64,000 nt of DNA from Hornefia porci. Its GTDB lineage: Bacteria; Bacillota; Clostridia; Peptostreptococcales; Anaerovoracaceae. The notes beneath the pieces were generated by a model. It worked only from the letters and a program-made list of their open reading frames with translations, was not told the origin of the DNA and did not search any database. Shown here in pieces: positions 11,397-62,271 of this stretch (the stretch's first letter is position 1; the number at the start of each line of letters is the position of its first letter). The stretch covers positions 2,170,001 through 2,234,000 of the forward strand of contig NZ_MJIE01000001.1 of NCBI RefSeq assembly GCF_001940235.1, in the 5' to 3' direction. The translations under genes and the position numbers were made by a program.

Positions 11397-12896
11397 ATGA
11401 GGAACAAAGAACAGCTGACCGGTTTTCTGCTCGACCATGCGGCACAGAGAACCGTGTCCTTTCATATGCCTGGACACAAGGGAAGCGGTCTGTACCGCCG
11501 CTTCGGCTACGACGGGTTTCTGAATCAGATGATGGACTGTGATATCACGGAGATTCCGGGGGCGGACAATCTGTTTCAGCCGGAGGGAGTTCTGCGGAGC
11601 ACCATGGACCGGTACCGGCGCCTGTACGACAGCCGTGAATCCTATCTGCTTGTCAACGGGTCCAGCTGCGGCCTCGTCGCCGCGGTGATGGCCTCCGTTC
11701 CGGCCGGCGGGCGCCTGATACTGGCGCGTAACTGCCACAAGGCGGTGTACAACGCGCTGTCTCTGGCCGGGGCGCAGCCGGTCTACGCGTTTCCCGAAAT
11801 GCTGCCGGAATACGGAATTACCGGAGAGATCCGGCCGGAGGAAGTCCGCCGCTGCGTCGCCGCCGCGCCGGACGTTTCGGCTGTGCTGATTCCCAGTCCG
11901 AATTATTACGGGATATGCAGTGATATTTCAGCTATTGCAGAAATCGTTCACGATGCGGGAATGACCCTGATTGTGGATCAGGCGCACGGAGCGCACCTGA
12001 AATTCTTTGACGAAAACCGCAGAGCCGACGGACGTTGTCTAATGGCCGCGGAAAATCTGGGGGCGGACATCGTCATCAACAGCATTCACAAAACGCTGGC
12101 GGCTTTCACGGAGGCGGCGCTCTGCAATGTGATGAGCGACAGGGTGGATTCTGACGAGCTGGAAGACGCCCTGCAGAAGATGGAAAGCACCAGCCCTTCT
12201 TATCTGCTGATGGCGTCGCTGGATATCAACGCAGATCTGCTGGAAAAGCACGGCGGGGAACTGGTGGATGACTGGCGGAAGGAACTAGAGCTGTTTTATG
12301 ACAGAGCAGTTTCCATCGACGGCCTGCGGGTCATGACCCATTCCCGGCTGGATGATTCCAAAATCAATCTCGATATGAGCCGGCGGGGGCTGAACGGGTA
12401 TGAGCTTGAACAGGAACTGCGGAAAAGGGGAATACTGGCGGAGCTGATCACGGGAAACCTTGTGATGTGCATGAGCGGGATCGGAAACAGACGAAACGAC
12501 TACGAGCGGCTCTATGAGGCGCTGCGGGAAATTGCAGAGCCCGAAAACGCCGCAGCGCCCGCCTGCGACAGGGCAGAGCCCGAAAACGCTGCAGCGCGCG
12601 CCTGCGACGAAGACGAAACGGAGCGGCGGAACGGGATGGCGGTCGAAGCGCCGCCATGGCCGGACCAGTCCTTTGTTCTCCACCCTGTTCCGCGCAAAAG
12701 AGTCAGAACGCCGATTGACGATGCGGCAGGACGGGTCTGCGCTCAGGCGATTATCCCTTATCCTCCCGGAATCCCCGTGATCTGTCCGGGAGAGGAAATT
12801 ACAGAAGAGATCGTGACATATGCGAAAACGCTCCGGGCGCTGGGGCAGAATGTCATGGGAATTGACGGTGACGGCTGTGTCCTGGTAGGCGTATGA
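11397..12896 (+). CDS. Orn/Lys/Arg decarboxylase-family PLP enzyme (group III-like)
   Basis: The protein has 499 residues. It is a fold-type I PLP enzyme with FHMPGHKGSG near the N-terminus, NGSSCGLVAAVMASV (PLP phosphate region), LIVDQAHGAHLKF (Asp binding the pyridine nitrogen, His) and INSIHKTLAAFTEAA (Schiff-base Lys). The short C-terminal Orn/Lys/Arg decarboxylase domain holds IIPYPPGIPVICPGEEI. This matches the SpeA/YaaO-like group that decarboxylates arginine, lysine or ornithine, though the substrate cannot be read from sequence. Odd point: residues about 380-405 hold a 13-residue in-frame tandem duplication (AEPENAAA...) forming an Ala/Pro-rich linker between the catalytic and C-terminal domains. 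Confidence 0.85.
   Translation: MRNKEQLTGFLLDHAAQRTVSFHMPGHKGSGLYRRFGYDGFLNQMMDCDITEIPGADNLFQPEGVLRSTMDRYRRLYDSRESYLLVNGSSCGLVAAVMASVPAGGRLILARNCHKAVYNALSLAGAQPVYAFPEMLPEYGITGEIRPEEVRRCVAAAPDVSAVLIPSPNYYGICSDISAIAEIVHDAGMTLIVDQAHGAHLKFFDENRRADGRCLMAAENLGADIVINSIHKTLAAFTEAALCNVMSDRVDSDELEDALQKMESTSPSYLLMASLDINADLLEKHGGELVDDWRKELELFYDRAVSIDGLRVMTHSRLDDSKINLDMSRRGLNGYELEQELRKRGILAELITGNLVMCMSGIGNRRNDYERLYEALREIAEPENAAAPACDRAEPENAAARACDEDETERRNGMAVEAPPWPDQSFVLHPVPRKRVRTPIDDAAGRVCAQAIIPYPPGIPVICPGEEITEEIVTYAKTLRALGQNVMGIDGDGCVLVGV
12534..12611 (+). repeat. 39-bp in-frame tandem duplication inside the decarboxylase-like gene
   Basis: There are two adjacent 39-base units (12534-12572 and 12573-12611) that differ at a handful of positions. 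Each encodes AEPENAAA-x-ACD-x. It lengthens a linker and keeps the reading frame. Confidence 0.85.
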
Positions 12897-13072
12897 TAAG
12901 GCAGGCTTATCTTCTGCGCCGCAACTGATAAGGACGCGTTCTGAGGCAGCCGCGCAGTCCTTGCAAACAGAGGGGTGCGGCGAAAGTGAACCAATTTTGT
13001 ACGGGGATGTATTTTGTATTTTTTTGTGATGAAAATGTGTATTTTTTTAGTGCTTTTTGTCACTCATAGGTG

Positions 13073-45664: not shown

Positions 45665-47506
45665 CTAGAACGTTTTAATCTGCTTCTTCAATTTCCGGAT
45701 CTCCCCATCGGAGTACAGTTTCTTTGGAATCTTCAGGTCAAAAGCATCCAGGATCTTCAATACATCTTCTGTATCTGCATTCGCAAACCAATAACTGTCA
45801 TCTCCCATAGGAACCACGCCCCACTTCTGAAGAGCCTCCTGCACACGTCTTCCGGAAATTCCATAGGTCCAGTTGCGGCCATCATTCTTGGATCTGGGAT
45901 TTTTCAGTAAATATTTCCTCTGAATCAGTCGAACCATGATCAATGCGATCATGCAGATCAGAAGATGCGCATGAATGTGTTCTTTGGTTTTTACAAACAT
46001 CGGACGTGTTTCCAGAGTGCCTTTCATTTCATGGAACTGATCCTCAATTCTGGAAAGACCGTGATATTTATCAATGACTTCCTGCGGGTCCATGCCCAGT
46101 TCACTTGTTCTAAGCTGGTAATATCCCATGAGTGAGGTGTACTGTTCCAGTTTTGTTTCATCGATCATTGCAAGCAGTTTATCGGAATCCAGAATCTCTC
46201 CGGTATCCTTGTTCACGACGTCTTTTGACAGGAATCTCCTCAGACTTCTGGCCTGTGCATGGGTGACACGAAAAGATGACGGACTGTCCTTCAGTTTCCT
46301 GATAAAGTCAAGGAACTTCCTGTGTTCGGCAACATCGCGGGCATAGAATTTTCTGCTCCAGTAAACGACGGATTTCTGCTGAATTGTCCGGATATTCCCC
46401 TCCGCATCCCGGACTTTCCTTGTAATGATACGGGATTTGAATTTGAAATTGTCATCCACAACGGTATATCCATCCTGATCCAGTGTCCATTCTACGTCAT
46501 TTTTCGTTGATTTTTTCAGGCTCTTGCTGATGATGTAACCGTTGCCGTCATCCAGAAGGCGGCACATAATCGGTCCTGTGCAGATCCCTTTGTCTGCGAT
46601 AAATATGGATCTTCCGGAAAACCCCAGTTTCGTAACGGTTTCATCATATGTCGGAACAGCCGTCTGATGGTCCAGGGTATTTCCGGGAAACAGATTGATG
46701 GAAATGGGAATGCCGTTGCGATCAAGGAACATCGCCATCTGGACAATCGGTTGCTTCCTCTGCTCCTTGCAAACACCGTTCTGCCGTATGCCTTTGCCAA
46801 TGATGTTGCCGGCTTCATCTTCTTCCTCAGGATCAGGATCACCAATCTCAAAGTAAAAATTCGTTACATCGTAGAACAGAAGAGAAGTATCTCTGCCCAT
46901 ACCTTTCATGATGGACGAATTAATTCTCTGCATGATTTTAAAGCGATTTTCATAGACGACATCTAATGTGTCATAGACATGATAGACATAAGAGTCATCC
47001 TTGACCAATGGTACATAGTAGTCATCATTCTCGCGGGCAGTAGCAAATTTCGAAGCCGGACGGCAGATTCTTCCGTAGACCAGAAGCCGCATGTAATTTG
47101 CAAGATCGTAGGTGATTCTGGAGTTATGCTTGATCGTTGCCATGAGGGAAGCCAGTCCGAGGTCATGAAAAATCGGATCCAGAAGGATCTGCGCACACAT
47201 ACGCGGATGTGCATACTCTCGTAGAAAGAGTTCAGTTGAATCTGACAGCCCATGTTTAGAAGGCACCAAAGGCTCATTGCAGTAAGGAAGCAGCGAATCA
47301 ATTAAAGGTTTCCCGTCTTTAAAAGACTGCTTCAGTCGTCTGACATAGTCCGGCTTACCATCATCAAAACGAGATAAAGGACCGATCGATAGTTCGGTAT
47401 GCTTGTAGGAAGTGATTTTGGAAGGATCTTTTTTTGAAGGTCTGCGAACACTTCGAACAAGTCTGAGATAAGGAATTCCGTTATTATTGTAGCATTCAAC
47501 GAACAT
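45665..47506 (-). CDS. IS1634 family transposase
   Basis: The protein has 613 residues, typical for IS1634 (COG5421) DDE transposases. Recognisable parts are the N-terminal VECYNNNGIPYLRLVRSVRR, DTSLLFYDVTNFYFEIGDPD, RKQPIVQMAMFLDRNGIPIS and IFIADKGICTG (catalytic Asp region). SRIEDQFHEMKGTLETRPMF (catalytic Glu region) and HIHAHLLICMIALIMVRLIQ complete the set. The start is placed at ATG 47506 with GGAGGTGACT directly upstream (a GTG two codons earlier is less likely). The frame is intact, so the element may still be active. Confidence 0.94.
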   Translation of the reverse strand: MFVECYNNNGIPYLRLVRSVRRPSKKDPSKITSYKHTELSIGPLSRFDDGKPDYVRRLKQSFKDGKPLIDSLLPYCNEPLVPSKHGLSDSTELFLREYAHPRMCAQILLDPIFHDLGLASLMATIKHNSRITYDLANYMRLLVYGRICRPASKFATARENDDYYVPLVKDDSYVYHVYDTLDVVYENRFKIMQRINSSIMKGMGRDTSLLFYDVTNFYFEIGDPDPEEEDEAGNIIGKGIRQNGVCKEQRKQPIVQMAMFLDRNGIPISINLFPGNTLDHQTAVPTYDETVTKLGFSGRSIFIADKGICTGPIMCRLLDDGNGYIISKSLKKSTKNDVEWTLDQDGYTVVDDNFKFKSRIITRKVRDAEGNIRTIQQKSVVYWSRKFYARDVAEHRKFLDFIRKLKDSPSSFRVTHAQARSLRRFLSKDVVNKDTGEILDSDKLLAMIDETKLEQYTSLMGYYQLRTSELGMDPQEVIDKYHGLSRIEDQFHEMKGTLETRPMFVKTKEHIHAHLLICMIALIMVRLIQRKYLLKNPRSKNDGRNWTYGISGRRVQEALQKWGVVPMGDDSYWFANADTEDVLKILDAFDLKIPKKLYSDGEIRKLKKQIKTF

Positions 47507-47646
47507 AGTCACCTCCGTTACATACCTATAACTCTATATATAATTATATCACAAACGCAAGAAAAAATCCAGCAGAAATACTGGATTTTCAATGTTTTTT
47601 TATGTATTTTTAGTTTGTTTTTACCTCTTCAAGTGGCAAAGTCGGG

Positions 47647-51578: not shown

Positions 51579-51974
51579 TTATTTCCGCTTCATTTCCTTC
51601 GGCGTTACGCAGGTTCCGGTTGCTCTGCAGACCACGATCGGCTCTTCCAGGAAGTCCGCCGCGGAATCATTGATGTCTTTTCTGGAAACGACGACCTTGC
51701 GGGCCTCGAACTTCATCTGGCGAGAGGTGTTTCCGATCTTGGTGATTTCGCCGTAAGCTTCAATGTAATCTCCTGCGTAGGTCGGAGCCAGGAACTCTAC
51801 GTTGTCATATGCGCAGAACAGACCTTCGTCTCCGTCCAGTTTGATCAGCAGCTCGGTCGCCACGTCTCCGAACAGGTGAACCATGTGAGCTCCGTCAACC
51901 AGCTCGCCGCCGTAGTGCGCGTCCTTCGCGGACATTCTGACTCTGATCAGTGATGTGATTTTTTCTTCTGCCAT
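51579..51974 (-). CDS. kal: 3-aminobutyryl-CoA ammonia-lyase
   Basis: The protein has 131 residues with a hotdog fold. [20 protein letters not shown] and [19 protein letters not shown] fit the Kal family of lysine fermenters. It removes ammonia from L-3-aminobutyryl-CoA to give crotonyl-CoA. It is transcribed away from the other lysine genes, with AAAGGAG before the ATG and a good sigma-A promoter (TTTACA, 17 bases, TATAAT) on the minus strand at 52045-52017. Genes for kdd, kamA-E and CoA transferase nearby support the assignment over a generic thioesterase. Confidence 0.88.
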
Positions 51975-52016: not shown

Positions 52017-52080
52017 ATTATAGTTTTCTCTTTTTCAGATGTAAATATCAATTGAAAAAAATGTCCGGAGGGTTTATGAT
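52017..52080. promoter_or_regulatory. Back-to-back sigma-A promoters of kal (minus) and the kam regulator (plus)
   Basis: Minus strand: TTTACA (complement of 52040-52045), 17 bases, TATAAT (complement of 52017-52022). Plus strand: TTGAAA (52052-52057), 17 bases, TATGAT (52075-52080). The two -35 boxes are six bases apart, so one bound regulator could affect both. Confidence 0.65.
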
Positions 52081-52090
52081 TTAATCAGAG

Positions 52091-52108
52091 TGAACCGTTT
52101 TGTGTTCG
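52091..52108 (+). promoter_or_regulatory. Candidate operator, degenerate palindrome at the regulator promoter
   Basis: TGAACC-N6-TGTTCG has the same GAAC-N8-GTTC core and spacing as the better palindrome at 54442-54461. It lies just downstream of the regulator's -10 box, a position suited to autorepression. Confidence 0.4.
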
Positions 52109-52130
52109 ACTGAAATGAGGTGAATCGAAA

Positions 52131-54209
52131 ATGAACCAGACCAGAGACTTTGGTGAAAACAGAGTGCTGGAACCACAGTACGTTCTGCCGACATCAGCCT
52201 GGAAGCTTGATAACCGGAGGGAAATCGAACCCTTTGAGATGCGTGTGAGGCTGAAGAAAATCCACATTGAAGGCACGAGTTTCAAGCAGATTCGGATGGA
52301 AGCGAACGACAATGACGAGAAAATCAAACAGAAAATCATCGATATCGTGATCCGTCGCGGCAAGCTGCATAATCCGGTGACAGACACCGGCGGGCTCGCC
52401 TACGGCACCGTCGAGGAAATCGGACCGGAGTATGAGAACCGTCTTGGACTCTCTCCGGGAGACGATGTGATCTGCAATGCGTCCCTGACGACGATTCCTA
52501 TTTATATCGACAAAGTGATATCCGTTGACCGCGCCTTCGGGCAGGCGGACGTGGAGGGCTACACGATTCTCTACTCCAGAATTCCTGTGGTACGGAAGGC
52601 AGAAGATGTTCCGATGAATCTGATGCTGTACGCGCTGAACGAGTCGGGAACCCTGCTGAAGGTCAGTAATATTGCGGTAGGAAAACGGAAATTCCTGGTA
52701 GTGGGGAACGATGAGCTTACAAATATTTTCTACGGCTACGCTATCCGGAAGATTGCCAGAGAGGATGCGGAGATCATCTGCCTTCTTGATCGTAAGACAG
52801 AGTCCGTGCTGCAGGGCAGCTCGATGGAGCGCCTGATGGAGAAGGTCTTCACCGAGGTGCGGATGGTCGATATTCTGAAGCCGATGGAATGTCTGGCGGA
52901 GCTGCGGGATCGTGCCCCCTTCGATCTGACGGTGAACTGTGCGGATATTCCGGGGGCTGAAACCATCAACATTCTAGCTACCCGCGAAGGCGGGACCGTA
53001 ATGTTCGCAAATCTGATTAACAATTACAATATTGCTTTGTACATCACAGAGTCTATCTCTAAGCGGCTGAACGTCCTCTGCGCTGACGGGTACAGCGAGG
53101 TCTATGACCGGTTCGACGTGGAGCTGGTCCGCGACCTGGCGCCGTATGTGGAACGGGCGGTGGAGGCGAACGTGCAGCTGGACGATGATCCGGCCTATCC
53201 GGTGGACCGCAAGAGCCGGCTGCGCGAGGTTTCCGGACAGCGGCAGACCATGCTGGAGGATTTTGTGTGCGAAAGCCGTGCGATGGCGGCGGTTCTGGAC
53301 GAGATCCTTACGGTTTCCCGATACGACTGCAACGTGCTGATTGCCGGGGACACGGGGGTCGGGAAGGAAAAAGTCGCCAACATCATCTACAAAAACAGCA
53401 TGCGGAAGATGCAGCCGTTCATCAAGGTAAACTGCGCGTCGATTACTTCCGACCTGATAGAAAGCGAGTTCTTCGGCTGTGAAGAGGGGGCGATGGGCGA
53501 GAAGCGCCCCGGCGGCCGGAAGGGGTATTTCGAGCTGGCGGATAACGGAACTGTTTTCCTGGACGATGTGGGCGAGCTTTCCCAGGATATGCAGGCCAAG
53601 CTTCTGCGCGTGATTCAGGACGGCGAATTCCGCAGAGTCGGCGGGAGCGTGCCGGTGAAAACCAACGTGAGGATTTTGTCGGCAACAAACCGCGACCTGG
53701 AGGCGGCGATCGAAGACGGGAGCTTCCGGCGGGATCTCTACTACCGACTGAACGTGGTCCGCATACGGATTCCCAGCCTGAAGGACCGGCCCGGCGATAT
53801 CCCGGCGCTGGTTCATCACTTCCTGAAGAAATACGGGAAGAAATTCGATATGAAACGGCACATCGATGAGGATGCGGTGGAATACCTGAAGCAGTGTGAA
53901 TGGGAAGGGAATATCCGGGAGCTGGAGAACGTTGTGCAGCGCCTGATGATCAGCTCAGATCAGGAGCAGATTACGCTTCTGGACGTGATGAAGGAGCTGC
54001 ACGGCGATGTCTTTGAGGCGGCGGCGCTGGACAGTGGAGATACAAAGGAAGACGGGCAGATCATGGATCTGGAGAAAATGGTCCAGAACTTCGAGAAAAA
54101 CATTCTGAAGATGGCCTGTGAACAGTACGGCTCCACAAGAAAAGCGGCCAGGGCCGTCGGAATCAGCCAGACACAGCTGGTGCGGAAAAAGAAAAAGTAT
54201 GACATCTGA
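52131..54209 (+). CDS. Kdd-domain/AAA+/Fis-type regulator of lysine fermentation (TyrR-like, atypical bEBP)
   Basis: The protein has 692 residues. Residues 1-350 or so are a diverged copy of 3,5-diaminohexanoate dehydrogenase. RVLEPQYVLPTSAWKLDN and NPVTDTGGLAYGTVEEIGP align with the Kdd encoded next door. Kdd's glycine-rich VIGGGGKSG is replaced by VVGNDELTN, so it is probably not catalytic. Residues 377-610 are an AAA+ domain with Walker A GDTGVGKE, Walker B VFLDDVGE and Arg fingers RRDLYYRL. The GAFTGA loop reads GAMGEK. A Fis-type helix-turn-helix ends the protein (TRKAARAVGISQTQLVRKKK). GAGGTGA precedes the ATG. I infer that it senses a pathway intermediate and controls kal, kdd and kam genes, possibly with sigma-A promoters. 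Confidence 0.85.
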   Translation: MNQTRDFGENRVLEPQYVLPTSAWKLDNRREIEPFEMRVRLKKIHIEGTSFKQIRMEANDNDEKIKQKIIDIVIRRGKLHNPVTDTGGLAYGTVEEIGPEYENRLGLSPGDDVICNASLTTIPIYIDKVISVDRAFGQADVEGYTILYSRIPVVRKAEDVPMNLMLYALNESGTLLKVSNIAVGKRKFLVVGNDELTNIFYGYAIRKIAREDAEIICLLDRKTESVLQGSSMERLMEKVFTEVRMVDILKPMECLAELRDRAPFDLTVNCADIPGAETINILATREGGTVMFANLINNYNIALYITESISKRLNVLCADGYSEVYDRFDVELVRDLAPYVERAVEANVQLDDDPAYPVDRKSRLREVSGQRQTMLEDFVCESRAMAAVLDEILTVSRYDCNVLIAGDTGVGKEKVANIIYKNSMRKMQPFIKVNCASITSDLIESEFFGCEEGAMGEKRPGGRKGYFELADNGTVFLDDVGELSQDMQAKLLRVIQDGEFRRVGGSVPVKTNVRILSATNRDLEAAIEDGSFRRDLYYRLNVVRIRIPSLKDRPGDIPALVHHFLKKYGKKFDMKRHIDEDAVEYLKQCEWEGNIRELENVVQRLMISSDQEQITLLDVMKELHGDVFEAAALDSGDTKEDGQIMDLEKMVQNFEKNILKMACEQYGSTRKAARAVGISQTQLVRKKKKYDI

Positions 54210-54281: not shown

Positions 54282-54441
54282 TCCGTTCTGTTCTGTTAAG
54301 GGAGAAACAGATTTGTCGCAATGCCGATGGCGACGCTGATGGAAAGCAATATAAGAAAAAGCTTTGCGTGAGACCTGCTGTTTGTAAATGTAATTTCACT
54401 GAGCCGGGAGCGAACCGATATAGAATCATGCCCGTTTGCCT

Positions 54442-54461
54442 TTGAACCCAATTCGGTTCAA
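54442..54461 (+). promoter_or_regulatory. Candidate operator TTGAACC-N6-GGTTCAA upstream of kdd
   Basis: A perfect 7-bp inverted repeat with a 6-base spacer, centred about 57 bases upstream of the kdd -35 box. The geometry equals that of TyrR boxes (6-bp arms, 6-base spacer), suiting a Fis-type helix-turn-helix dimer such as the adjacent regulator. Confidence 0.55.
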
Positions 54462-54505: not shown

Positions 54506-54534
54506 TGGACATGATTTCAGTTGGATTTTATAAT
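54506..54534 (+). promoter_or_regulatory. Sigma-A promoter of kdd
   Basis: TGGACA (54506-54511), 17 bases, TATAAT (54529-54534), 75 bases before the kdd start. I found no -24/-12 sigma-54 promoter in this region. Confidence 0.65.
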
Positions 54535-54609: not shown

Positions 54610-55671
54610 ATGAAAAAAGGAAATCCATATGGAACACACAGAGTCATCTCCCCGAAGGGTGTTCTGCCGCAGCCGGCAGACGTTATCGATAACGATATGG
54701 AGATCTATGACAACGAAGTCAAGATCAACGTCAAGACCCTGAACATCGACTCTGCGTCATTCACATCTGTATGCGATCACGCATGTGGAAAGAAGCCTGC
54801 TGACATCACTTCCGACGAGGACAAGAAGGCAGTTGCGGACACCATGCTGGGCATTGTTGCTAAGGCAGGAAAGCATAAGAACCCCTGGACAGGTTCCGGC
54901 GGAATGCTGATCGGTACTGTTGAGGAAATCGGACCGAACTGGAAGGGCGACCTGAAGGTCGGCGACAAGATCGCTACGCTGGTTTCTCTGTCCCTGACTC
55001 CGCTGGTTATCGATGAGATTCTGGAGATGAGACCGGCAATCGACCAGGTTGACATCAAGGGTCATGCGATTCTGTTCCAGAGCGGCATCTATGCGAAGCT
55101 GCCTGACGATATGGAAGAGGGACTGGCTCTGTCTGCTCTGGACGTTGCGGGAGCTCCGGCTCAGGCTGCGAAGCTCTGCCAGCTGGGACAGACTGTTCTG
55201 GTCATCGGCGGCGGCGGAAAATCCGGACTGCTGTGCCTGTATGAGGCAAAGAAGAGAGTCGGCGTTACCGGTAAGGTTATCTGCGCTGCGGGATCTCAGA
55301 AATCCGAAGACAGAGCGCGCAACCTGGATCTGGCGGACGAGTACTTCCACATGGACGCTACCGATGCGGTCGGTATGTATGAGAAGATCATGGAGCTGAC
55401 AGACGGACAGCTCTGCGACGTCGTTATCAACTGCGTTAACATCGAGAACACTGAGATGGCTTCCATCCTGACCTGCAAGGACGACGGAACCGTTTACTTC
55501 TTCTCCATGGCGACCAGCTTCACAAAGGCTGCTCTGGGAGCTGAGGGCGTAGGCAAGGACGTCAACATGATCATCGGAAACGGCTACACCAAGGGTCACG
55601 CGGAGGTTACTCTGCAGGTGCTGAGAGAGCATGACGGAATCCGCAAGCTCTTCCAGGAAATGTATGCGTAA
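54610..55671 (+). CDS. kdd: L-erythro-3,5-diaminohexanoate dehydrogenase
   Basis: The protein has 353 residues. It is an NAD(P)-dependent dehydrogenase of the lysine fermentation pathway, oxidising 3,5-diaminohexanoate to 3-keto-5-aminohexanoate. Visible parts are the N-terminal PYGTHRVISPKGVLPQPADV, GGMLIGTVEEIGPNW, and the Rossmann glycine motif VLVIGGGGKSGLLC near residue 198. VVINCVNIENTEMASIL follows. Start ATG 54610 has CTAGGAGGATAC upstream. It is followed by 183 bases with a strong hairpin before kamA. The neighbouring regulator carries a degenerate paralogue of this domain. Confidence 0.92.
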   Translation: MKKGNPYGTHRVISPKGVLPQPADVIDNDMEIYDNEVKINVKTLNIDSASFTSVCDHACGKKPADITSDEDKKAVADTMLGIVAKAGKHKNPWTGSGGMLIGTVEEIGPNWKGDLKVGDKIATLVSLSLTPLVIDEILEMRPAIDQVDIKGHAILFQSGIYAKLPDDMEEGLALSALDVAGAPAQAAKLCQLGQTVLVIGGGGKSGLLCLYEAKKRVGVTGKVICAAGSQKSEDRARNLDLADEYFHMDATDAVGMYEKIMELTDGQLCDVVINCVNIENTEMASILTCKDDGTVYFFSMATSFTKAALGAEGVGKDVNMIIGNGYTKGHAEVTLQVLREHDGIRKLFQEMYA

Positions 55672-55854: not shown

Positions 55855-57126
55855 ATGGCAATCAGAAATTGGAAGGACATTCCTTTGTTCAAGGATGTCA
55901 CGGATGAACAGTGGAACGATTGGCACTGGCAGGTATCCCACAGACTTTCAACGGTGGAGGATATCGCTCAGGTTGTGAATCTGACAGATCAGGAGAAGGC
56001 TGACATCGAGAAGGTTATGGGCGGATTCCGCGTTGGAATCACTCCGTACTACGCTTCCCTGATGGATCCCGATGATCCGAGAGACCCGGTCAGAATGCAG
56101 GCGGTTCCGACGCTGGCAGAGATGCACAGATCGGAAGCGGACGATGCTGACCCGCTGCATGAGGACTCCGACTCTCCGGCTCCGGGACTGACCCACAGAT
56201 ATCCGGACAGAGTTCTGTTCCTGATTACGGACCAGTGTTCCATGTACTGCCGTCACTGCACCAGAAGAAGACTGGCCGGCGAGACTGACGGAGCGAGATC
56301 CAGAGAAGACATCGACGCGTGTATCGATTACATCAGACGGACTCCGCAGGTCAGAGACGTCCTGCTGTCCGGCGGCGACGCGCTCTGTGTTGAGGACGAT
56401 ACGCTGGAGTACATCATCAGCGAGCTGAGAAAGATCGACCACGTTGAAATCGTCAGACTCGGTTCCAGAACGCCGGTGGTTATGCCGATGCGTATTACAG
56501 ACAACCTGGTCAACATGCTGAAGAAATATCACCCGATATGGCTGAACACACACTTCAACCATCCGAAGGAAATGACTCCGGAAGCAGCGGAAGCATGTCG
56601 CAAGCTGGCTGACGCGGGTATTCCGCTCGGAAACCAGTCCGTACTGCTGAGAGGCGTCAACGACTGCAAGCACATCATGAGAGACCTGGTACATGTACTG
56701 GTCAAGAACAGAGTCAGACCGTACTACATCTACATCTGCGACCTGTCCGTCGGCATCGAGCACTTCAGAACCTCCGTTGCCAAGGGCATCGAGATTATCG
56801 AGGGCCTGAGAGGACATACCTCCGGATACTGCGTACCGACCTTTGTTGTCGACGCTCCGGGAGGCGGCGGAAAGACGCCGGTACAGCCTCAGTACGTAAT
56901 CTCCGAGACACCGGATAAGGTGATCCTGAGAAACTACGAAGGCGTTATCACCACGTACACGCAGCCGCATCTGCCTGATCTGCCGTGCAAATGCGACTAC
57001 TGCACCGGGAAGAAGACCTACAAGTATGAAGGCGTTTCCGCTCTGGGCGAAGGACTTCAGATTAAATCCATGGAGCCGGCACACCTGGCGAGACATGAGA
57101 GAAACGCGAAGAACAAGCAGAAATAA
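55855..57126 (+). CDS. kamA: Lysine 2,3-aminomutase
   Basis: The protein has 423 residues. It is a radical SAM, PLP-dependent enzyme that converts L-lysine to L-beta-lysine, the first step of lysine fermentation. Radical SAM cysteines are in CSMYCRHCTRRRLAG near residue 127-134. SGGDALCVEDDTLEY, VRLGSRTPVVMPMRI and VDAPGGGGKTPVQPQY (PLP Lys region) follow. The C-terminal zinc/dimer motif is CKCDYCTGKK. N-terminal NWKDIPLFKDVTDEQWNDWH is typical. GATAGGAGAT precedes the ATG. Confidence 0.96.
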   Translation: MAIRNWKDIPLFKDVTDEQWNDWHWQVSHRLSTVEDIAQVVNLTDQEKADIEKVMGGFRVGITPYYASLMDPDDPRDPVRMQAVPTLAEMHRSEADDADPLHEDSDSPAPGLTHRYPDRVLFLITDQCSMYCRHCTRRRLAGETDGARSREDIDACIDYIRRTPQVRDVLLSGGDALCVEDDTLEYIISELRKIDHVEIVRLGSRTPVVMPMRITDNLVNMLKKYHPIWLNTHFNHPKEMTPEAAEACRKLADAGIPLGNQSVLLRGVNDCKHIMRDLVHVLVKNRVRPYYIYICDLSVGIEHFRTSVAKGIEIIEGLRGHTSGYCVPTFVVDAPGGGGKTPVQPQYVISETPDKVILRNYEGVITTYTQPHLPDLPCKCDYCTGKKTYKYEGVSALGEGLQIKSMEPAHLARHERNAKNKQK

Positions 57127-57128
57127 GA

Positions 57129-57190
57129 GGGCGTCTGCCTGAGCAGACCCGAAGAAAAACGACATAGGGAGGCTTCGGTCTCCCTATGTC
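57129..57190 (+). other. Two hairpins in the kamA-kamB gap; the second covers the kamB ribosome-binding site
   Basis: GTCTGC/GCAGAC (57133-57148) and GACATAGGGAG/CTCCCTATGTC (57161-57190, 11-bp perfect stem, 8-base loop). The second stem contains the GGGAGG that would serve kamB and the ATG at 57186. No T-run follows, so translational control or RNA processing is as likely as termination. Confidence 0.55.
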
Positions 57191-58241
57191 ATTCAAGAAT
57201 ATCCACAGGCAACAATCAATTATGGGCTTATTATACGATCTGTCAACTGAATACAAGACACTGTCCATTGTCGGCATGGCGAAAAACGCCGGGAAGACCA
57301 CCGCACTGAACTATCTGATCGAGGAAGCGGATGACGAAATGATCAGACTCGGAATCACATCCACAGGGCGGGACGGGGAGACCTCTGACCTGGTGACGGG
57401 AACAGAGAAGCCCCGGGTGTATCTTTATGAGGACACGGTCGTTTCCGTTCCGGCGCAGCTGTATGAGCTGGCTGAGGCGGGGCTGGAGATTCTGGAGCTG
57501 ACAAAGTTCGGTACGGCGATCGGAGACATCATGCTCTGCCGTGTCGCGGAGAGCGGGTATGTGCAGATTGCCGGACCCGTGGCGACCGCGGACAACAAAA
57601 AAATGTGCGCCCGGATGTTTGATCTCGGCGCGGAGCTGATTCTGATCGACGGCGCCATCGACAGGAAGTCCATTGCGGCGCCGGAAACGTCGGACGCGAT
57701 TATTTTGTCGACCGGAGCGGTTCTCTCCAGGAGCCTGAAAAAGGTGGTGGAGGAAACCTCCCATATCGTCAATCTGTACCGGCTTCCGGAGCTTGAGGAC
57801 GAAACGGCCCGGCAGGCGCTGGCGGAGACGCGCGGAGAGGAGCGTGTGACGCTGATTGACAGAGACGGCGGTGTGCAGCGGCTGGAGCTGGCTACCGGAC
57901 TGGGCGGCAGTCGTTTTATCGACGACGCGATTACAGAAGACACGCGGTATGTATATATCCCGGGGGCTTTTACAAACAGCGTGATCGCCGATATCCAGAC
58001 TGAGAAGCTGAAGAGGGTCAGGTTCATCCTGAAGGATCCCACAAGGATTTTTATCAATGTGATGGACTGGAGACAGCTGATCAAGCGCGGATTTTCGGTA
58101 AGCGTCCTGAAGAACATCAGGATTGCGGCGGTGACCGTCAATCCTTTTTCGCCGGGCGGATATTCATTTGAACATGGAGTGCTGAGAGATACAATGCAGG
58201 AAGCGCTTCCCGACATACCGGTTATCGATGTGAGAATGTAG
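57186..58241 (+). CDS. kamB: Lysine 5,6-aminomutase reactivase subunit KamB
   Basis: The protein has 351 residues, or 339 if it starts at ATG 57222. It has a P-loop-like motif near residue 30 (LSIVGMAKNAGKTTALNY) and family segments RLGITSTGRDGETSDLVTG, ELILIDGAIDRKSIAAP and VTVNPFSPGGYSFEHG. By order (kamA-B-C-D-E) it is the KamB protein, which together with the MutS-like KamC is annotated as a reactivating system for the B12/PLP-dependent lysine 5,6-aminomutase. The start is uncertain because ATG 57186 sits in a hairpin arm. Confidence 0.82.
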   Translation: MSFKNIHRQQSIMGLLYDLSTEYKTLSIVGMAKNAGKTTALNYLIEEADDEMIRLGITSTGRDGETSDLVTGTEKPRVYLYEDTVVSVPAQLYELAEAGLEILELTKFGTAIGDIMLCRVAESGYVQIAGPVATADNKKMCARMFDLGAELILIDGAIDRKSIAAPETSDAIILSTGAVLSRSLKKVVEETSHIVNLYRLPELEDETARQALAETRGEERVTLIDRDGGVQRLELATGLGGSRFIDDAITEDTRYVYIPGAFTNSVIADIQTEKLKRVRFILKDPTRIFINVMDWRQLIKRGFSVSVLKNIRIAAVTVNPFSPGGYSFEHGVLRDTMQEALPDIPVIDVRM

Positions 58242-58258
58242 TCAGAAAGGGAGTAGAC

Positions 58259-59902
58259 ATGAAGCAGGGTTCTAACAGAAGGCTGGCCAATGTGAAGACC
58301 AGGACGGAGACGGGTTTTGAGTATGTCATGGCTCATCTGGATCTGAATACGCCTTTTGGAAAGAAACTCCTGAAAGAGAGAAAACCGTTTTATCCCGGTG
58401 AGGAGAACGAGCTGCGGCACGAGCTGGACAAGGTCGAAGACATGATGAAATTTGTCCGGGAAAGTGACCGCCAGGTTTCGAGAATACAGGAGACCTTCAT
58501 GGAAATGAAGGATCTTTCCTACACGATCCGGAGAAGTCACAGAAACGCTTTGTCGGTGCTGGAGCTGTTTGAGGTGAAGACGATGCTTCTGCAGATGCAG
58601 AAGATCGGAAAACTTTGCGCGCAGACGGAAAGCCCTGTGCCGGAGGAGTATGTTCTGGACGACGTGACACCCCTGCTGGACAGGCTGGACCCCAGAGGAG
58701 ATCGACTTAACACATTCTACATCTACGATGACTTTTCGGAAAAACTGGCTGAGCTGCGGAAGGAGAAGCATCGCTGCGAGATTCTGATCCGCAGAACGCA
58801 GAAGGCCAGGAAGGAAGAAATCCGGAAGGAATACGGCATCGTACTGACGCCGAAATTCGACGTCATCATTTCCAGGTCCAGCGAGGATCTGGAGAAAGCA
58901 AGGCAGATAAAAGATCTTGAGCAGATTTCGGAAGATTATATGTCAGTCACCTTTGAGCTGGCAAAATCGGACAAGGTATATGAGCTCGTCAGAGACATGG
59001 AAGAGGTCAACGGCGAGATTGAGGAAGAAGAGTTGAGAATACGGGAGCTTCTTTCGCAGGAGGTGGCCTCCTGTGAGGAGCTTCTGACTGAGAACTGTTG
59101 TAAGATAGGAGCTCTGGATCTTGCGCTTGCTAAGGCAATCTATGGAATCAGGCATGATTGTGTCAAACCGGAAATTGTCGAGGAGCACGTTGTTGAATTT
59201 GAAGAGGGCAGACACCTGCAGGTAGAAGAGGTCCTGCATTCCAAAGGAAAAGAATACTGTCCCGTCAGCATTGCGCTGGCGGACGGCGTGACCTGCATCA
59301 CAGGCGCCAATATGGGTGGCAAGACGATTTCACTGAAATTGTCCGGTCTGGTGCCGATGCTGGCCCAATACGGATTCTTTGTCCCTTGCAGGAGGGCGAG
59401 AATCGGATTATCGAATTATATGCAGATTCTGATTGGCGACAGTCAGTCTGTGGAACGTGGCTTATCCAGCTTCGGAAGTGAAATGGAGGAGCTGAAGGAG
59501 ATTCTGGACAACAGTCAGGACCGTTCTCTGATCCTGATCGATGAGATTGCCAGTGGAACCAACCCGATTGAGGGGCTGGCTCTGACCAGGAGCCTGATCG
59601 ATTATCTGAAGGTCCGCAGCTATATCTCCCTGATCACGACACATTTCGACGCGGTGACAGAAGAACGCGATATCAAGAATATGCAGGTTCGCGGGCTGGC
59701 CGACGTGGACTTCAGAAAGCTGGACAGTGAACTTCATCTTGCAAACAGAAGAGAAAGAATAAATATTATTTCCCGGTATATGGACTATCGATTATATACG
59801 GTGACAGAAAACAGAGAGATCCCGAAGGACGCTCTGAATATCGCTAAGATGCTGGGCCTCAATGAGGAAATCATCGAAGGCGCCAAAAAGTATATTAAGT
59901 AA
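58259..59902 (+). CDS. kamC: Lysine 5,6-aminomutase reactivase ATPase KamC (MutS-like)
   Basis: The protein has 547 residues. N-terminal helical, coiled-coil-rich regions are followed by a MutS-family ATPase domain. Walker A is ITGANMGGKTISLK near residue 350 and Walker B SLILIDEIASGTNPIEG near 424, followed by ISLITTHFDAVTE. It lacks the mismatch-recognition and clamp domains of true MutS. Genomic position between kamB and kamD identifies it as KamC, thought to remove damaged cobalamin from KamDE. AGAAAGGGAG precedes the ATG. Confidence 0.88.
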   Translation: MKQGSNRRLANVKTRTETGFEYVMAHLDLNTPFGKKLLKERKPFYPGEENELRHELDKVEDMMKFVRESDRQVSRIQETFMEMKDLSYTIRRSHRNALSVLELFEVKTMLLQMQKIGKLCAQTESPVPEEYVLDDVTPLLDRLDPRGDRLNTFYIYDDFSEKLAELRKEKHRCEILIRRTQKARKEEIRKEYGIVLTPKFDVIISRSSEDLEKARQIKDLEQISEDYMSVTFELAKSDKVYELVRDMEEVNGEIEEEELRIRELLSQEVASCEELLTENCCKIGALDLALAKAIYGIRHDCVKPEIVEEHVVEFEEGRHLQVEEVLHSKGKEYCPVSIALADGVTCITGANMGGKTISLKLSGLVPMLAQYGFFVPCRRARIGLSNYMQILIGDSQSVERGLSSFGSEMEELKEILDNSQDRSLILIDEIASGTNPIEGLALTRSLIDYLKVRSYISLITTHFDAVTEERDIKNMQVRGLADVDFRKLDSELHLANRRERINIISRYMDYRLYTVTENREIPKDALNIAKMLGLNEEIIEGAKKYIK

Positions 59903-59914
59903 GGAGATAACAGG

Positions 59915-61471
59915 ATGAAAAGCAAATTGAACATTGATCCTAAAATGGTCGACAGCGCGCGTCAGCACGCCGCTAATGTGGCCAGGGACATGCAGGAATT
60001 CATCGACGTACATACGACAGTAAGTACGGAGAGAACCGTCCTGAGACTGCTGGGGGTGGACGGCATTGACGATGTCGAGACGCCGCTTCCGAATGTCATT
60101 GTGGAGCAGATCCAGGCGGCCGGCGGCCTCCCGCGCGGCGCTGCGTACTGGATGGGCAACGCAATGATTCAGACGGGACTGCAGCCCCAGGAGATCGCGG
60201 AAAAGGTGGGAGCCGGTGAGCTGGATATCACCAAGCTTGACACAGCTTCTGCGAAAGAGGCGGAAGAGGCGATTATGCCTATCGTGCACGCTTCCCTGAA
60301 GAGAATCAAGGCACAGACCGCCAAGAGAAACGAATATATTGAACGTCTGGGCGAAGGCAGCAGACCGTATCTGTACGTTATCGTCGCGACCGGAAACATC
60401 TATGAGGACGTTGTCCAGGCGAAGGCTGCGGCGAGGCAGGGCGCGGACATCATCGCTGTAATCAGAACCACAGCGCAGTCCCTGCTGGATTACGTACCTT
60501 ACGGACCGACCACAGAAGGATTCGGAGGAACCTACGCGACGCAGGAGAACTTCCGCATCATGAGAAAGGCACTGGATGAAGTCGGAGAGGAAGTCGGCAG
60601 ATACATCCGTCTGTGCAACTATTCTTCCGGTATGTGCATGCCGGAAATCGCGGCCATGGGCGCCATCGAGAGACTGGACGTCATGCTGAACGACGCGATT
60701 TACGGAATCCTGTTCCGTGACATCAATATGCAGAGAACCATCGTTGACCAGTATTTCAGCCGTGTAATCATCGGCTACTGCGGAATCATCTTCAATTCCG
60801 GAGAGGACAACTATCTGACCACCGATGACGCGTTTGAGGCGGCGCATACCGTCACAGCGTCTCAATTCATCAATGAGCAGTTTGCGGTTCTTGCCAACAT
60901 CCCGGAGGAGCAGATGGGACTCGGCCACGCCTTCGAGATGGATCCGATGATGGAGGACGGTTTCCTGTACGAGCTGGCGCAGGCTGTTATGGCCAAGGAG
61001 ATTTTCCCGAACGCGAGCCTCAAGTACATGCCGCCGACAAAGTTCATGACCGGAAATATTTTCCGCGGACATATTCAGGACGCGCTGTTCAACCTGGTTT
61101 CCATCTGGAGCGGACAGTCGCTGCAGCTCCTCGGTATGATGACCGAGGCGATTCTGACGCCGCATATGCAGGACCGGTACCTGTCCATTGAGAACGCTCA
61201 GTACATCTTCAACAACGCCAGACACATCGGCGACGAGGTGGAGTTCAAGAAGGATGGCATCATCCAGAAGAGAGCTCAGCTCGTTCTGTCCAAGGCTAAC
61301 GACCTGCTGGCGGAGGTTGAGAAGGACGGCCTGTTCTCGACAATCGAACAGGGTAAATTCGGCGGAGTCAAAAGACCTAAGGATGGCGGACACGGACTGG
61401 ACGGCGTCTGCTCGAAGGACGACCAGTACTTCAATCCGTTCATTCCTCTGATGAAAGAAGGTGCAGAATAA
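59915..61471 (+). CDS. kamD: Lysine 5,6-aminomutase alpha subunit
   Basis: The protein has 518 residues, the standard length. It is the large TIM-barrel subunit of the adenosylcobalamin- and PLP-dependent aminomutase that moves the terminal amino group of D-lysine or L-beta-lysine. Segments include IQAAGGLPRGAAYWMGNAMI, IVATGNIYEDVVQAKAAARQ, QSLLDYVPYGPTTEGFGGTY and MGLGHAFEMDPMMEDGFLYE. TAAGGAGAT precedes the ATG, and the stop overlaps the kamE start (TAATG). Confidence 0.96.
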   Translation: MKSKLNIDPKMVDSARQHAANVARDMQEFIDVHTTVSTERTVLRLLGVDGIDDVETPLPNVIVEQIQAAGGLPRGAAYWMGNAMIQTGLQPQEIAEKVGAGELDITKLDTASAKEAEEAIMPIVHASLKRIKAQTAKRNEYIERLGEGSRPYLYVIVATGNIYEDVVQAKAAARQGADIIAVIRTTAQSLLDYVPYGPTTEGFGGTYATQENFRIMRKALDEVGEEVGRYIRLCNYSSGMCMPEIAAMGAIERLDVMLNDAIYGILFRDINMQRTIVDQYFSRVIIGYCGIIFNSGEDNYLTTDDAFEAAHTVTASQFINEQFAVLANIPEEQMGLGHAFEMDPMMEDGFLYELAQAVMAKEIFPNASLKYMPPTKFMTGNIFRGHIQDALFNLVSIWSGQSLQLLGMMTEAILTPHMQDRYLSIENAQYIFNNARHIGDEVEFKKDGIIQKRAQLVLSKANDLLAEVEKDGLFSTIEQGKFGGVKRPKDGGHGLDGVCSKDDQYFNPFIPLMKEGAE

Positions 61472-62271
61472 TGGCAGATAAGAATTGTGCTGCGGCAATT
61501 GCTCAGGTTGATCTGACCAAGGTCAAGCCTTACGGCGATACCCTGAACGACGGCTATATGGAACTCGCTTTTACTCTCCCGGTACCATACGGCGAAGAGG
61601 CAGAGGAAGCTGCCAAGCAGTATGTGGTCAAGATGGGCATGGAGGAACCGAACGTAACCTACTACCATGAACTCTGTCCGGGATATACATTCTTTGTTGT
61701 ATACGCAAAGAGCACGCATACCGTTGACTTCACGAAGATCAAGGTCAAGAAGGTGGACGTCGAGGTGCTGGATCGTGTGGAGTGCGGCAAATGGATCGAG
61801 GAAAATGTCGGCAGAGACATCGTCGTCGTCGGCGCCTCCATCGAATCCGACGCGCATACTGTCGGCATCGACGCGATCATTCAGATGAAGGGCTTCCACG
61901 GACATTTCGGTCTGGAGCGTTTCAAGAATGTGGTCGCCTACAACATGGGTTCTCAGGTTCCCTGCGAGCAGCTGCTTGCAAAGGCCAGAGAGGTGAACGC
62001 GGATGCGATTCTGGTTTCGCAGACGGTTACACAGAAAGACATTCACATCAAGCAGCTGACCCAGATGATCGAGCTGGTCGAGGCAGAAGGCCTCAGAGAC
62101 AAGCTGATCTGCACCTGCGGCGGACCGAGAATCTCTCATGAGCTGGCACAGGAGCTTGGATATGACGCCGGATTCGGACCGGGTAAATATGCAGAGCATG
62201 TAATGTCCTTCATCATGGAAGAAGTCGTGAAGCGCGGCTGGCAGAAGAAACCGAAAATCGAGGACAGATAA
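61471..62271 (+). CDS. kamE: Lysine 5,6-aminomutase beta subunit
   Basis: The protein has 266 residues. It has the B12-binding Rossmann domain with the base-off motif DAHTVGIDAI (DxHxxG, about residue 127). A nearby Lys in IQMKGFHGHFG (about residue 140) is probably the PLP-carrying lysine. VSQTVTQKDIHIKQL and CTCGGPRISHELAQELGYDA complete the cobalamin fold. It pairs with KamD. GAAAGAAGG lies upstream, and a strong terminator follows. Confidence 0.95.
   Translation: MADKNCAAAIAQVDLTKVKPYGDTLNDGYMELAFTLPVPYGEEAEEAAKQYVVKMGMEEPNVTYYHELCPGYTFFVVYAKSTHTVDFTKIKVKKVDVEVLDRVECGKWIEENVGRDIVVVGASIESDAHTVGIDAIIQMKGFHGHFGLERFKNVVAYNMGSQVPCEQLLAKAREVNADAILVSQTVTQKDIHIKQLTQMIELVEAEGLRDKLICTCGGPRISHELAQELGYDAGFGPGKYAEHVMSFIMEEVVKRGWQKKPKIEDR

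Follow-up and report, generated by a model that had tools for sequence, protein, structure and literature searches.

TyrR combines a TyrR-type HTH with an AAA+ domain that lacks the GAFTGA loop, acts at sigma70 promoters, and senses aromatic amino acids through its ACT and PAS domains. MocR/GabR regulators are built on a GntR-type HTH and PLP chemistry and are not known to use an AAA+ domain or sigma54. In the latter proteins, a domain with an enzyme fold (that of an aminotransferase) has become the sensor (PMC5320631, PMC6917764). The TyrR box has been described as the palindrome TGTAAA-N6-TTTACA (PMC4894688), and the bEBPs reported to act with sigma70 and to lack GAFTGA include Rhodobacter capsulatus NtrC, Caulobacter NtrC, and VspR (PMC10274813). 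The sigma54 regulons of Clostridiales (those of OrdR, PrdR, and others) are governed by one-component bEBPs, several of which are predicted to control amino acid fermentation operons (Nie et al. 2019, PMC6615313). The 39 EBP groups of that survey carry PAS, GAF, ACT, PrpR_N, V4R, and other sensors; a Kdd-like sensor or a lysine regulon is absent from its sections 5 and 7, and the word "lysine" is absent from its main text. We found no description of the regulator analyzed here, or of its architecture, in the open-license papers searched.

The regulator is encoded among the lysine-to-butyrate genes of a gut bacterium. Coordinates are those of the window, by which we mean the whole stretch of DNA analyzed (64,000 nucleotides).

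51579..51974, minus strand: kal, 3-aminobutyryl-CoA ammonia lyase, divergent (profile search)
52131..54209, plus strand: regulator open reading frame (ORF), 692 amino acids, ATG start
52149..53159, plus strand: Kdd-fold sensor domain, residues 7 to 343 (7 to 334 by sequence, to 343 by structure, from structure matches of an AF2 model)
52701..52724, plus strand: degenerate dinucleotide-binding loop VGNDELTN, residues 191 to 198 (enzyme form, IGGGGKSG)
53049..53051, plus strand: Glu307, counterpart of Glu310 in Cloacamonas Kdd (numbering from alignment)
53268..53765, plus strand: AAA+ domain (Sigma54_activat, PF00158), residues 380 to 545 (Pfam, E 1.5e-59)
53487..53504, plus strand: GAMGEK, residues 453 to 458, where sigma54 activators have the GAFTGA contact loop (loop alignment)
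53556..53570, plus strand: Walker B FLDDV, residues 476 to 480 (LDE[IV] in 58/58 loop-positive orthologues)
54063..54206, plus strand: HTH_50 DNA-binding domain (PF18024), residues 645 to 692 (Pfam, E 2.3e-13)
54610..55671, plus strand: kdd, L-erythro-3,5-diaminohexanoate dehydrogenase (profile search, alignment)
55855..57126, plus strand: kamA, lysine 2,3-aminomutase (profile search)
57186..59902, plus strand: kamB and kamC, lysine 5,6-aminomutase reactivase (profile search)
59915..62271, plus strand: kamD and kamE, lysine 5,6-aminomutase (profile search)

A preliminary description of this DNA had proposed that a copy of the enzyme Kdd is fused to an AAA+ and DNA-binding module. The fusion is evident from the Pfam matches, which provide both bEBP hallmarks, the Sigma54_activat AAA+ domain and the C-terminal HTH. 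The full-length AF2 model (pLDDT, 75; pTM, 0.51) was set aside for domain arrangement. Residues 1 to 337 are 100% identical to the regulator of Hornefia butyriciproducens (L026, NZ_VUMZ01000012.1), so the window comes from this species or from one closely related to it. Two further regulators of this architecture bring the total in the genome to three, and both paralogues keep GAFTGA. They lie remote from lysine genes (L005, 9585 to 11672; L006, 9271 to 11358). One is directly 5′ of a 1,598-amino-acid ORF; the other is tail to tail with an ORF that by eye resembles an NhaC-type antiporter, and ORFs in its neighborhood look (also by eye) like a group II intron reverse transcriptase and an IS110 transposase. 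In the window itself, a 615-amino-acid ORF (45665 to 47512, minus strand) resembles an insertion sequence transposase by eye.

The alignment of the N terminus with Kdd, as claimed in the preliminary description, was reproduced by BLASTP of residues 1 to 360 against the window Kdd (27% identity over 346 columns, E 1e-42). The common blocks RV-x-P-x-x-VLP, K-x-x-NP-x-T-x-x-GG, and GTVEEIGP are all present as quoted, the cofactor glycine motif is indeed altered (VVGNDELTN in the regulator, VIGGGGKSG in Kdd), and kdd does start 400 bp after the regulator stop codon. A profile search and a structure comparison, both proposed as checks, gave the same answer. The NCBIfam Kdd model NF052381 matches residues 8 to 175 (136.5 bits, E 8.9e-40); with residues 1 to 360 as the query, this score lies below the enzyme cutoff of 200 bits, and that of the window Kdd lies above it (239.1 bits). 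PDB chains of 3,5-DAHDH match residues 7 to 334 by sequence (E 1.8e-22), and the AF2 model of the sensor domain matches Kdd structures, giving it the 3,5-DAHDH fold. Residues 1 to 360 had no match among the models of one Pfam copy; the precomputed family PF26370 lists these regulators together with stand-alone proteins, many of which are named L-erythro-3,5-diaminohexanoate dehydrogenase. We regard the Kdd homology and fold of this domain as practically certain.

To compare enzyme and sensor residue by residue, we aligned 38 enzymes with 27 regulators, 17 of them from lysine loci. The 17 lysine-locus regulators share with the enzymes 36 conserved columns, including GK...P.T..GG. The glutamate at position 307 (Glu312 in the window Kdd) is present in 27/27 regulators and 38/38 enzymes, and the E310G change in the solved enzyme altered its substrate scope (PMC9902596). 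As Glu307 is also kept in regulators beside unrelated genes, its presence does not have to mean a common ligand. Gly203, Lys204, and Gly206, invariant in 38/38 enzymes, are all replaced in 17/17 lysine-locus regulators, so that the intact NADP-binding loop GGGGKSG reads GNDELTN in the window. Regulators beside other genes (L106 to L111 and L138) retain a GxxGKxG-like loop, which looks like an intermediate state; in one of them (L110, 4296 to 6641), the Rossmann part is interrupted by a long Gly/Ala/Ser-rich insertion. Asp220, following the second Rossmann strand, occurs in 17/17 lysine-locus regulators and 0/38 enzymes. Because an Asp at this point is typical of NAD binders, the sensor may still bind a nucleotide. 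The sensor domain appears to be an old relative of the pathway enzyme, probably inactivated.

The view of the sensor as a repurposed copy of the pathway enzyme holds as far as homology goes, but direct copying from the neighboring kdd is not supported. In a quick, unrooted tree of 65 rows with long branches, the 27 regulator N-domains and the 38 enzymes are split by one starred branch (the sample comprised 13 hand-picked lysine loci and most others, with seven loci omitted as repeats or fragments). This separation rules out a recent tandem duplication of kdd and suggests that the capture was old and probably single. The simplest reading would be that a Kdd-type domain was captured once, long ago, and that duplications came later. 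A phylum-wide sample of 398 genomes yielded a match in 82; among the matches listed, regulator-length frames came only from the present genome (three) and one other (G356), the other frames listed being 78 to 441 amino acids long. That sample has almost no other member of the present family, in which such regulators are common and at least 103/197 genomes have a Kdd-type match. The distribution supports a direction from enzyme to sensor.

We then asked how well the locus is conserved. Eighty loci from named genomes were picked by sensor similarity and are therefore an orthologous group by construction, with the order kal (divergent), regulator, kdd, kamA. Divergent kal lies 5′ of the regulator in 72/80 loci; the sequence stops within 340 bp in 7 of the remaining 8, and L081 has no kal despite 10 kb of sequence. 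In 72/80 loci, kdd lies at most 2.5 kb downstream of the regulator, and in three (L056, L060, and L102), kdd-kam is on the kal side. Five loci lack kdd: four end within 200 bp, and L079 has none despite 8.9 kb. Downstream kamA is present in 63 loci; 9 have kdd without kamA, 6 of them ending there, and L047, L050, and L051 show no kamA within 5.9 to 7.5 kb after kdd. The preliminary description had asked whether the fusion always sits next to kdd/kamA. It does so for kdd in 75/80 loci, but related regulators adjoin other genes. Two kdd copies are found on the regulator strand in 31/80 loci (e.g., L030 to L032 and L034 to L045), usually one ∼80 to 85% and one ∼70% identical to the window Kdd; the second copy may serve another substrate or cofactor. 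The regulator-kdd gap is 1,116 bp in the type-strain locus L026, compared to 400 bp in the window. The extra ∼716 bp (window, ∼54375; L026, ∼12245 to 12970) has internal inverted repeats and lies upstream of the operator and promoter described below, both of which are kept (the operator with one change).

Despite the bEBP architecture, the window regulator reads GAMGEK at the loop that contacts sigma54. In a survey of 79/80 loci (L066 is cut off and was left out; L049 is incomplete), GAFTGA or GSFTGA is kept in 58/79 orthologues (loop-plus) and lost in 21/79, including the window regulator (loop-minus). Walker B is changed in 14/21 loop-minus proteins (LDDV in the window) and in 0/58 loop-plus proteins, and both sequences vary between loop-minus lineages. 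Promoters were counted only in loci with a complete gap, hence denominators of 16 and 56 at kdd and of 20 and 50 at kal. A sigma54 site with a matrix score of at least 13 precedes kdd in 52/56 loop-plus and 0/16 loop-minus loci; by pattern, with start codons corrected, the counts are 54/56 and 0/16, although related loci are not independent and such counts overstate the evidence. The loop-plus exceptions are L047, with a site beyond the called start, and L082, whose best candidate (TGGCAT...TTCT) scores 9.1. Upstream of kal, a sigma54 site is present in 41/50 loop-plus and 0/20 loop-minus loci. This association at both kdd and kal suggests that the regulator controls both transcripts, and its control of kdd-kam and kal is very likely.

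In the window, no −24/−12 promoter with up to two mismatches is listed in the kal-regulator or regulator-kdd gap. A hidden sigma54 site in the cluster was considered and rejected (24 matches with up to two mismatches, compared to 28.2 expected). The window copy is not an ordinary sigma54 activator. We also checked for rpoN in the genomes of 50/80 loci. It was found in the present genome, in 20/21 loop-minus genomes (a partial match for L060; none in the L049 genome), and in 27/28 loop-plus genomes (none in the L090 genome), which rules out rpoN loss as the cause of loop loss.

The number of changes in loop state depends on the tree. The N-domain tree gives four (four to five over bootstraps), at least two of them on starred branches; a quick tree with a paralogue outgroup also gives four, three of them on well-supported branches; and a concatenated tree of 66/79 loci, which may mix histories, gives six, five of them on well-supported branches. 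When the tree is rooted on the paralogues, loop-plus proteins make up both the outgroup and the earliest branches, suggesting that loss is the likely direction. An independent-pairs test yielded two pairs on starred branches (four on all), too few for significance. The trees suggest that the loop was lost more than once.

The operators and sigma70-type promoters of the window, recognized from sequence patterns, are as follows.

52017..52045, minus strand: sigma70-like promoter towards kal, TTTACA-17-TATAAT, 11/12
52052..52080, plus strand: sigma70-like promoter towards the regulator, TTGAAA-17-TATGAT, 10/12, with an operator just downstream
52090..52109, plus strand: operator in the kal-regulator gap, GTGAACC-N6-TGTTCGA, one core mismatch
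52168..52187, plus strand: possible extra operator within the regulator gene 5′ end, one mismatch, perhaps chance (it overlaps conserved coding sequence)
54410..54429, plus strand: weaker tandem operator, two mismatches, 32 bp upstream of the next
54442..54461, plus strand: operator upstream of kdd, TTGAACC-N6-GGTTCAA, a perfect dyad
54506..54534, plus strand: sigma70-type promoter for kdd, TGGACA-17-TATAAT, 11/12, its −35 starting 54 bp from the operator center

The operator was first spotted by eye in the window, before a pattern-free scan across loci. In that scan, GAACC-N6-GGTTC was the commonest dyad in both groups (14/21 loop-minus and 38/58 loop-plus loci), with five shuffles giving at most 2 and 4, respectively. 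Across loci it is frequently doubled, with the copies 31 to 32 bp apart. Only one exact match to YGAACC-N6-GGTTCR exists in the 2.8-Mb genome, and it is the site upstream of kdd. Allowing two mismatches gave 134 sites per strand in the genome, compared to 31 in the control, which is too many to define a regulon; the exact site was absent from those listed. A looser pattern with three mismatches showed no enrichment within the window (3 found, 2.64 expected). The operator just 3′ of the regulator promoter makes autoregulation possible.

The single sigma70-like site in the window kdd gap is not striking alone, with 0.9 expected from shuffles. The orthologues provide the context. Counting sites with at least 10/12 hexamer matches and a −35 located 53 to 57 bp from the operator center, we found a sigma70-type site at kdd in 15/16 loop-minus loci, always at 54 to 56 bp, and in 0/55 loop-plus loci. 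The exception, L057, has no above-threshold site at this spacing and has a weaker −35 there. The 54-bp spacing was computed on L026 and is the same in window coordinates. In 48 loop-plus loci, the distance from operator to −24 varies from 49 to 272 bp, a spread that would suit an enhancer working through DNA looping. On the kal side, loop-minus spacing is looser (54, 59 to 60, or 64 to 65 bp in 14/20 loci), and it fails as a second discriminator, as 11/40 loop-plus loci also have a site within 53 to 66 bp. In many loop-plus loci, the operator center at kal is 37 to 38 bp from the −24 element, which is close for an enhancer.

From the computed homology, fold, synteny, operator, and promoter classes with their association, we infer the ligand, activation (rather than repression), and the polymerase contact. 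We hold with reasonable confidence that the regulator is a Kdd-fold sensor of a pathway intermediate mounted on a bEBP and that several lineages of the family exchanged sigma54 for sigma70. An old enzyme-derived sensor, without the normal NADP-binding loop but with the substrate-site glutamate kept, would most likely bind an intermediate at the Kdd step, 3,5-diaminohexanoate or 3-keto-5-aminohexanoate; the substrate or product of Kdd is our best guess for the ligand. Binding would alter how the AAA+ domain assembles. The operators recognized by the C-terminal HTH would be the GAACC-N6-GGTTC sites, often tandem, that lie in the kal-regulator gap and upstream of kdd-kam. In the presumed ancestral state, still seen in most orthologues, sigma54 promoters would be activated through the GAFTGA loop. 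In some lineages, including that of the window, the loop appears to have decayed, in many cases along with a Walker B residue, and the sigma54 promoters to have gone. There, a sigma70 promoter at a fixed 54 to 56 bp from the same operator would be served by contact with the housekeeping polymerase, as with TyrR or Rhodobacter NtrC; a sigma70 mode is likely for the window. Feed-forward induction by an intermediate fits the locus layout at least as well as the feedback device, still hypothetical, that the preliminary description envisaged.

The sensor could instead read NAD(P)(H) or the redox state. Its fold is that of a dinucleotide-binding dehydrogenase, relatives in L106 to L111 and L138 keep GxxGKxG-like loops, and the distribution of Asp220 (17/17 lysine-locus regulators, no enzyme) raises this reading and slightly lowers that of an intermediate sensor. 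Nevertheless, with all three loop residues replaced in every lysine-locus regulator and with the GK...NP.T..GG block and Glu307 kept, we consider it unlikely. Alternatively, the sensor may pair with the homologous Kdd enzyme and report enzyme load rather than bind a metabolite. The shared fold and the proximity to kdd in 75/80 loci (four of the other five being cut by a contig end) would suit such pairing, but regulator and enzyme are only 27% identical, and one branch divides all of them, making it improbable.

Two other readings concern what the loop-minus protein does at its operators. Without GAFTGA and the Walker B residues, the protein has lost the known means of activation, and the operator in the kal-regulator gap closely follows a possible promoter of the regulator gene, as might be expected if the protein were mainly a repressor that occupies its operators without activating polymerase and is freed by ligand. 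An operator well upstream of the −35 is in the usual position for activators, however, unlike one that blocks, and the operator center lies 54 to 56 bp upstream of the kdd −35 in 15/16 loci; in addition, activation is expected of the loop-plus orthologues, which have sigma54 promoters. We therefore think repression rather unlikely. Finally, the variability of loop and Walker B among loop-minus lineages would fit the decay of an unneeded regulator, with the operon constitutive from its sigma70 promoter. Decay is hard to reconcile with the high conservation of sensor and HTH in loop-minus proteins, the retained operators, and their fixed spacing to the new promoter, and we consider it very improbable. 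A sigma70-acting sensor of a pathway intermediate is the reading that we carry forward.

Related sensors adjoin other dehydrogenase operons. In L107, L109, and L138, a Kdd-fold regulator is directly followed by a more distant Kdd-like dehydrogenase (44 to 52% identity), whose gene is preceded by a sigma54-like site; the pair is also present in L106, there without the site, and in L108 a sigma54-like site precedes a gene that by eye resembles a transporter component. All five regulators have GAFTGA or GSFTGA. Near L106, L107, and L138, an ORF resembles beta-keto acid cleavage enzymes (by eye, from the N terminus). Loci of this second class (L106, L107, L109, and L138), some of which also have ORFs nearby that by eye resemble transporters, perhaps serve the breakdown of another beta-amino acid.

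These data provide a candidate regulator and operator for the lysine-to-butyrate pathway, for which the open-license papers that we searched named none. More broadly, and somewhat more probably than the opposite, this orthologous family with a sensor derived from a pathway dehydrogenase made several independent moves from sigma54 to sigma70, each with the loop lost, the −24/−12 element gone, a sigma70 promoter at 54 to 56 bp, the operator unchanged, and rpoN kept. If true, the family is a natural repeated experiment in turning an ATP-dependent activator into a recruitment-type activator, and related genomes that show the two states, before and after, offer a way into testing that change.

Compared to Kdd (NF052381, PF26370; PDB 7dl0, 7dl1, 7dl3, and 7dl7), the regulator lacks the glycine/lysine NADP loop, scores below the enzyme cutoff, is fused to AAA+ and HTH domains, and lies across the starred branch from 38/38 enzymes. 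It resembles MocR/GabR in its enzyme-fold sensor. With TyrR and the TyrR-like EBPs GcsR and PhhR, as these are described, it shares a palindromic operator with N6 spacing, here predicted from sequence and accompanied by an HTH_50 domain. Unlike TyrR, its sensor is a dehydrogenase fold (no ACT or PAS domain matched in Pfam up to E 10), and most orthologues still have the GAFTGA loop and sigma54 promoters. NtrC and VspR are of the response regulator type with other sensors; the present family allows loop loss, promoter class, and operator-to-−35 spacing to be set against each other across orthologues of a single locus. Enzyme-fold sensing and bEBPs leaving sigma54 are each known; here both are joined in one conserved locus.
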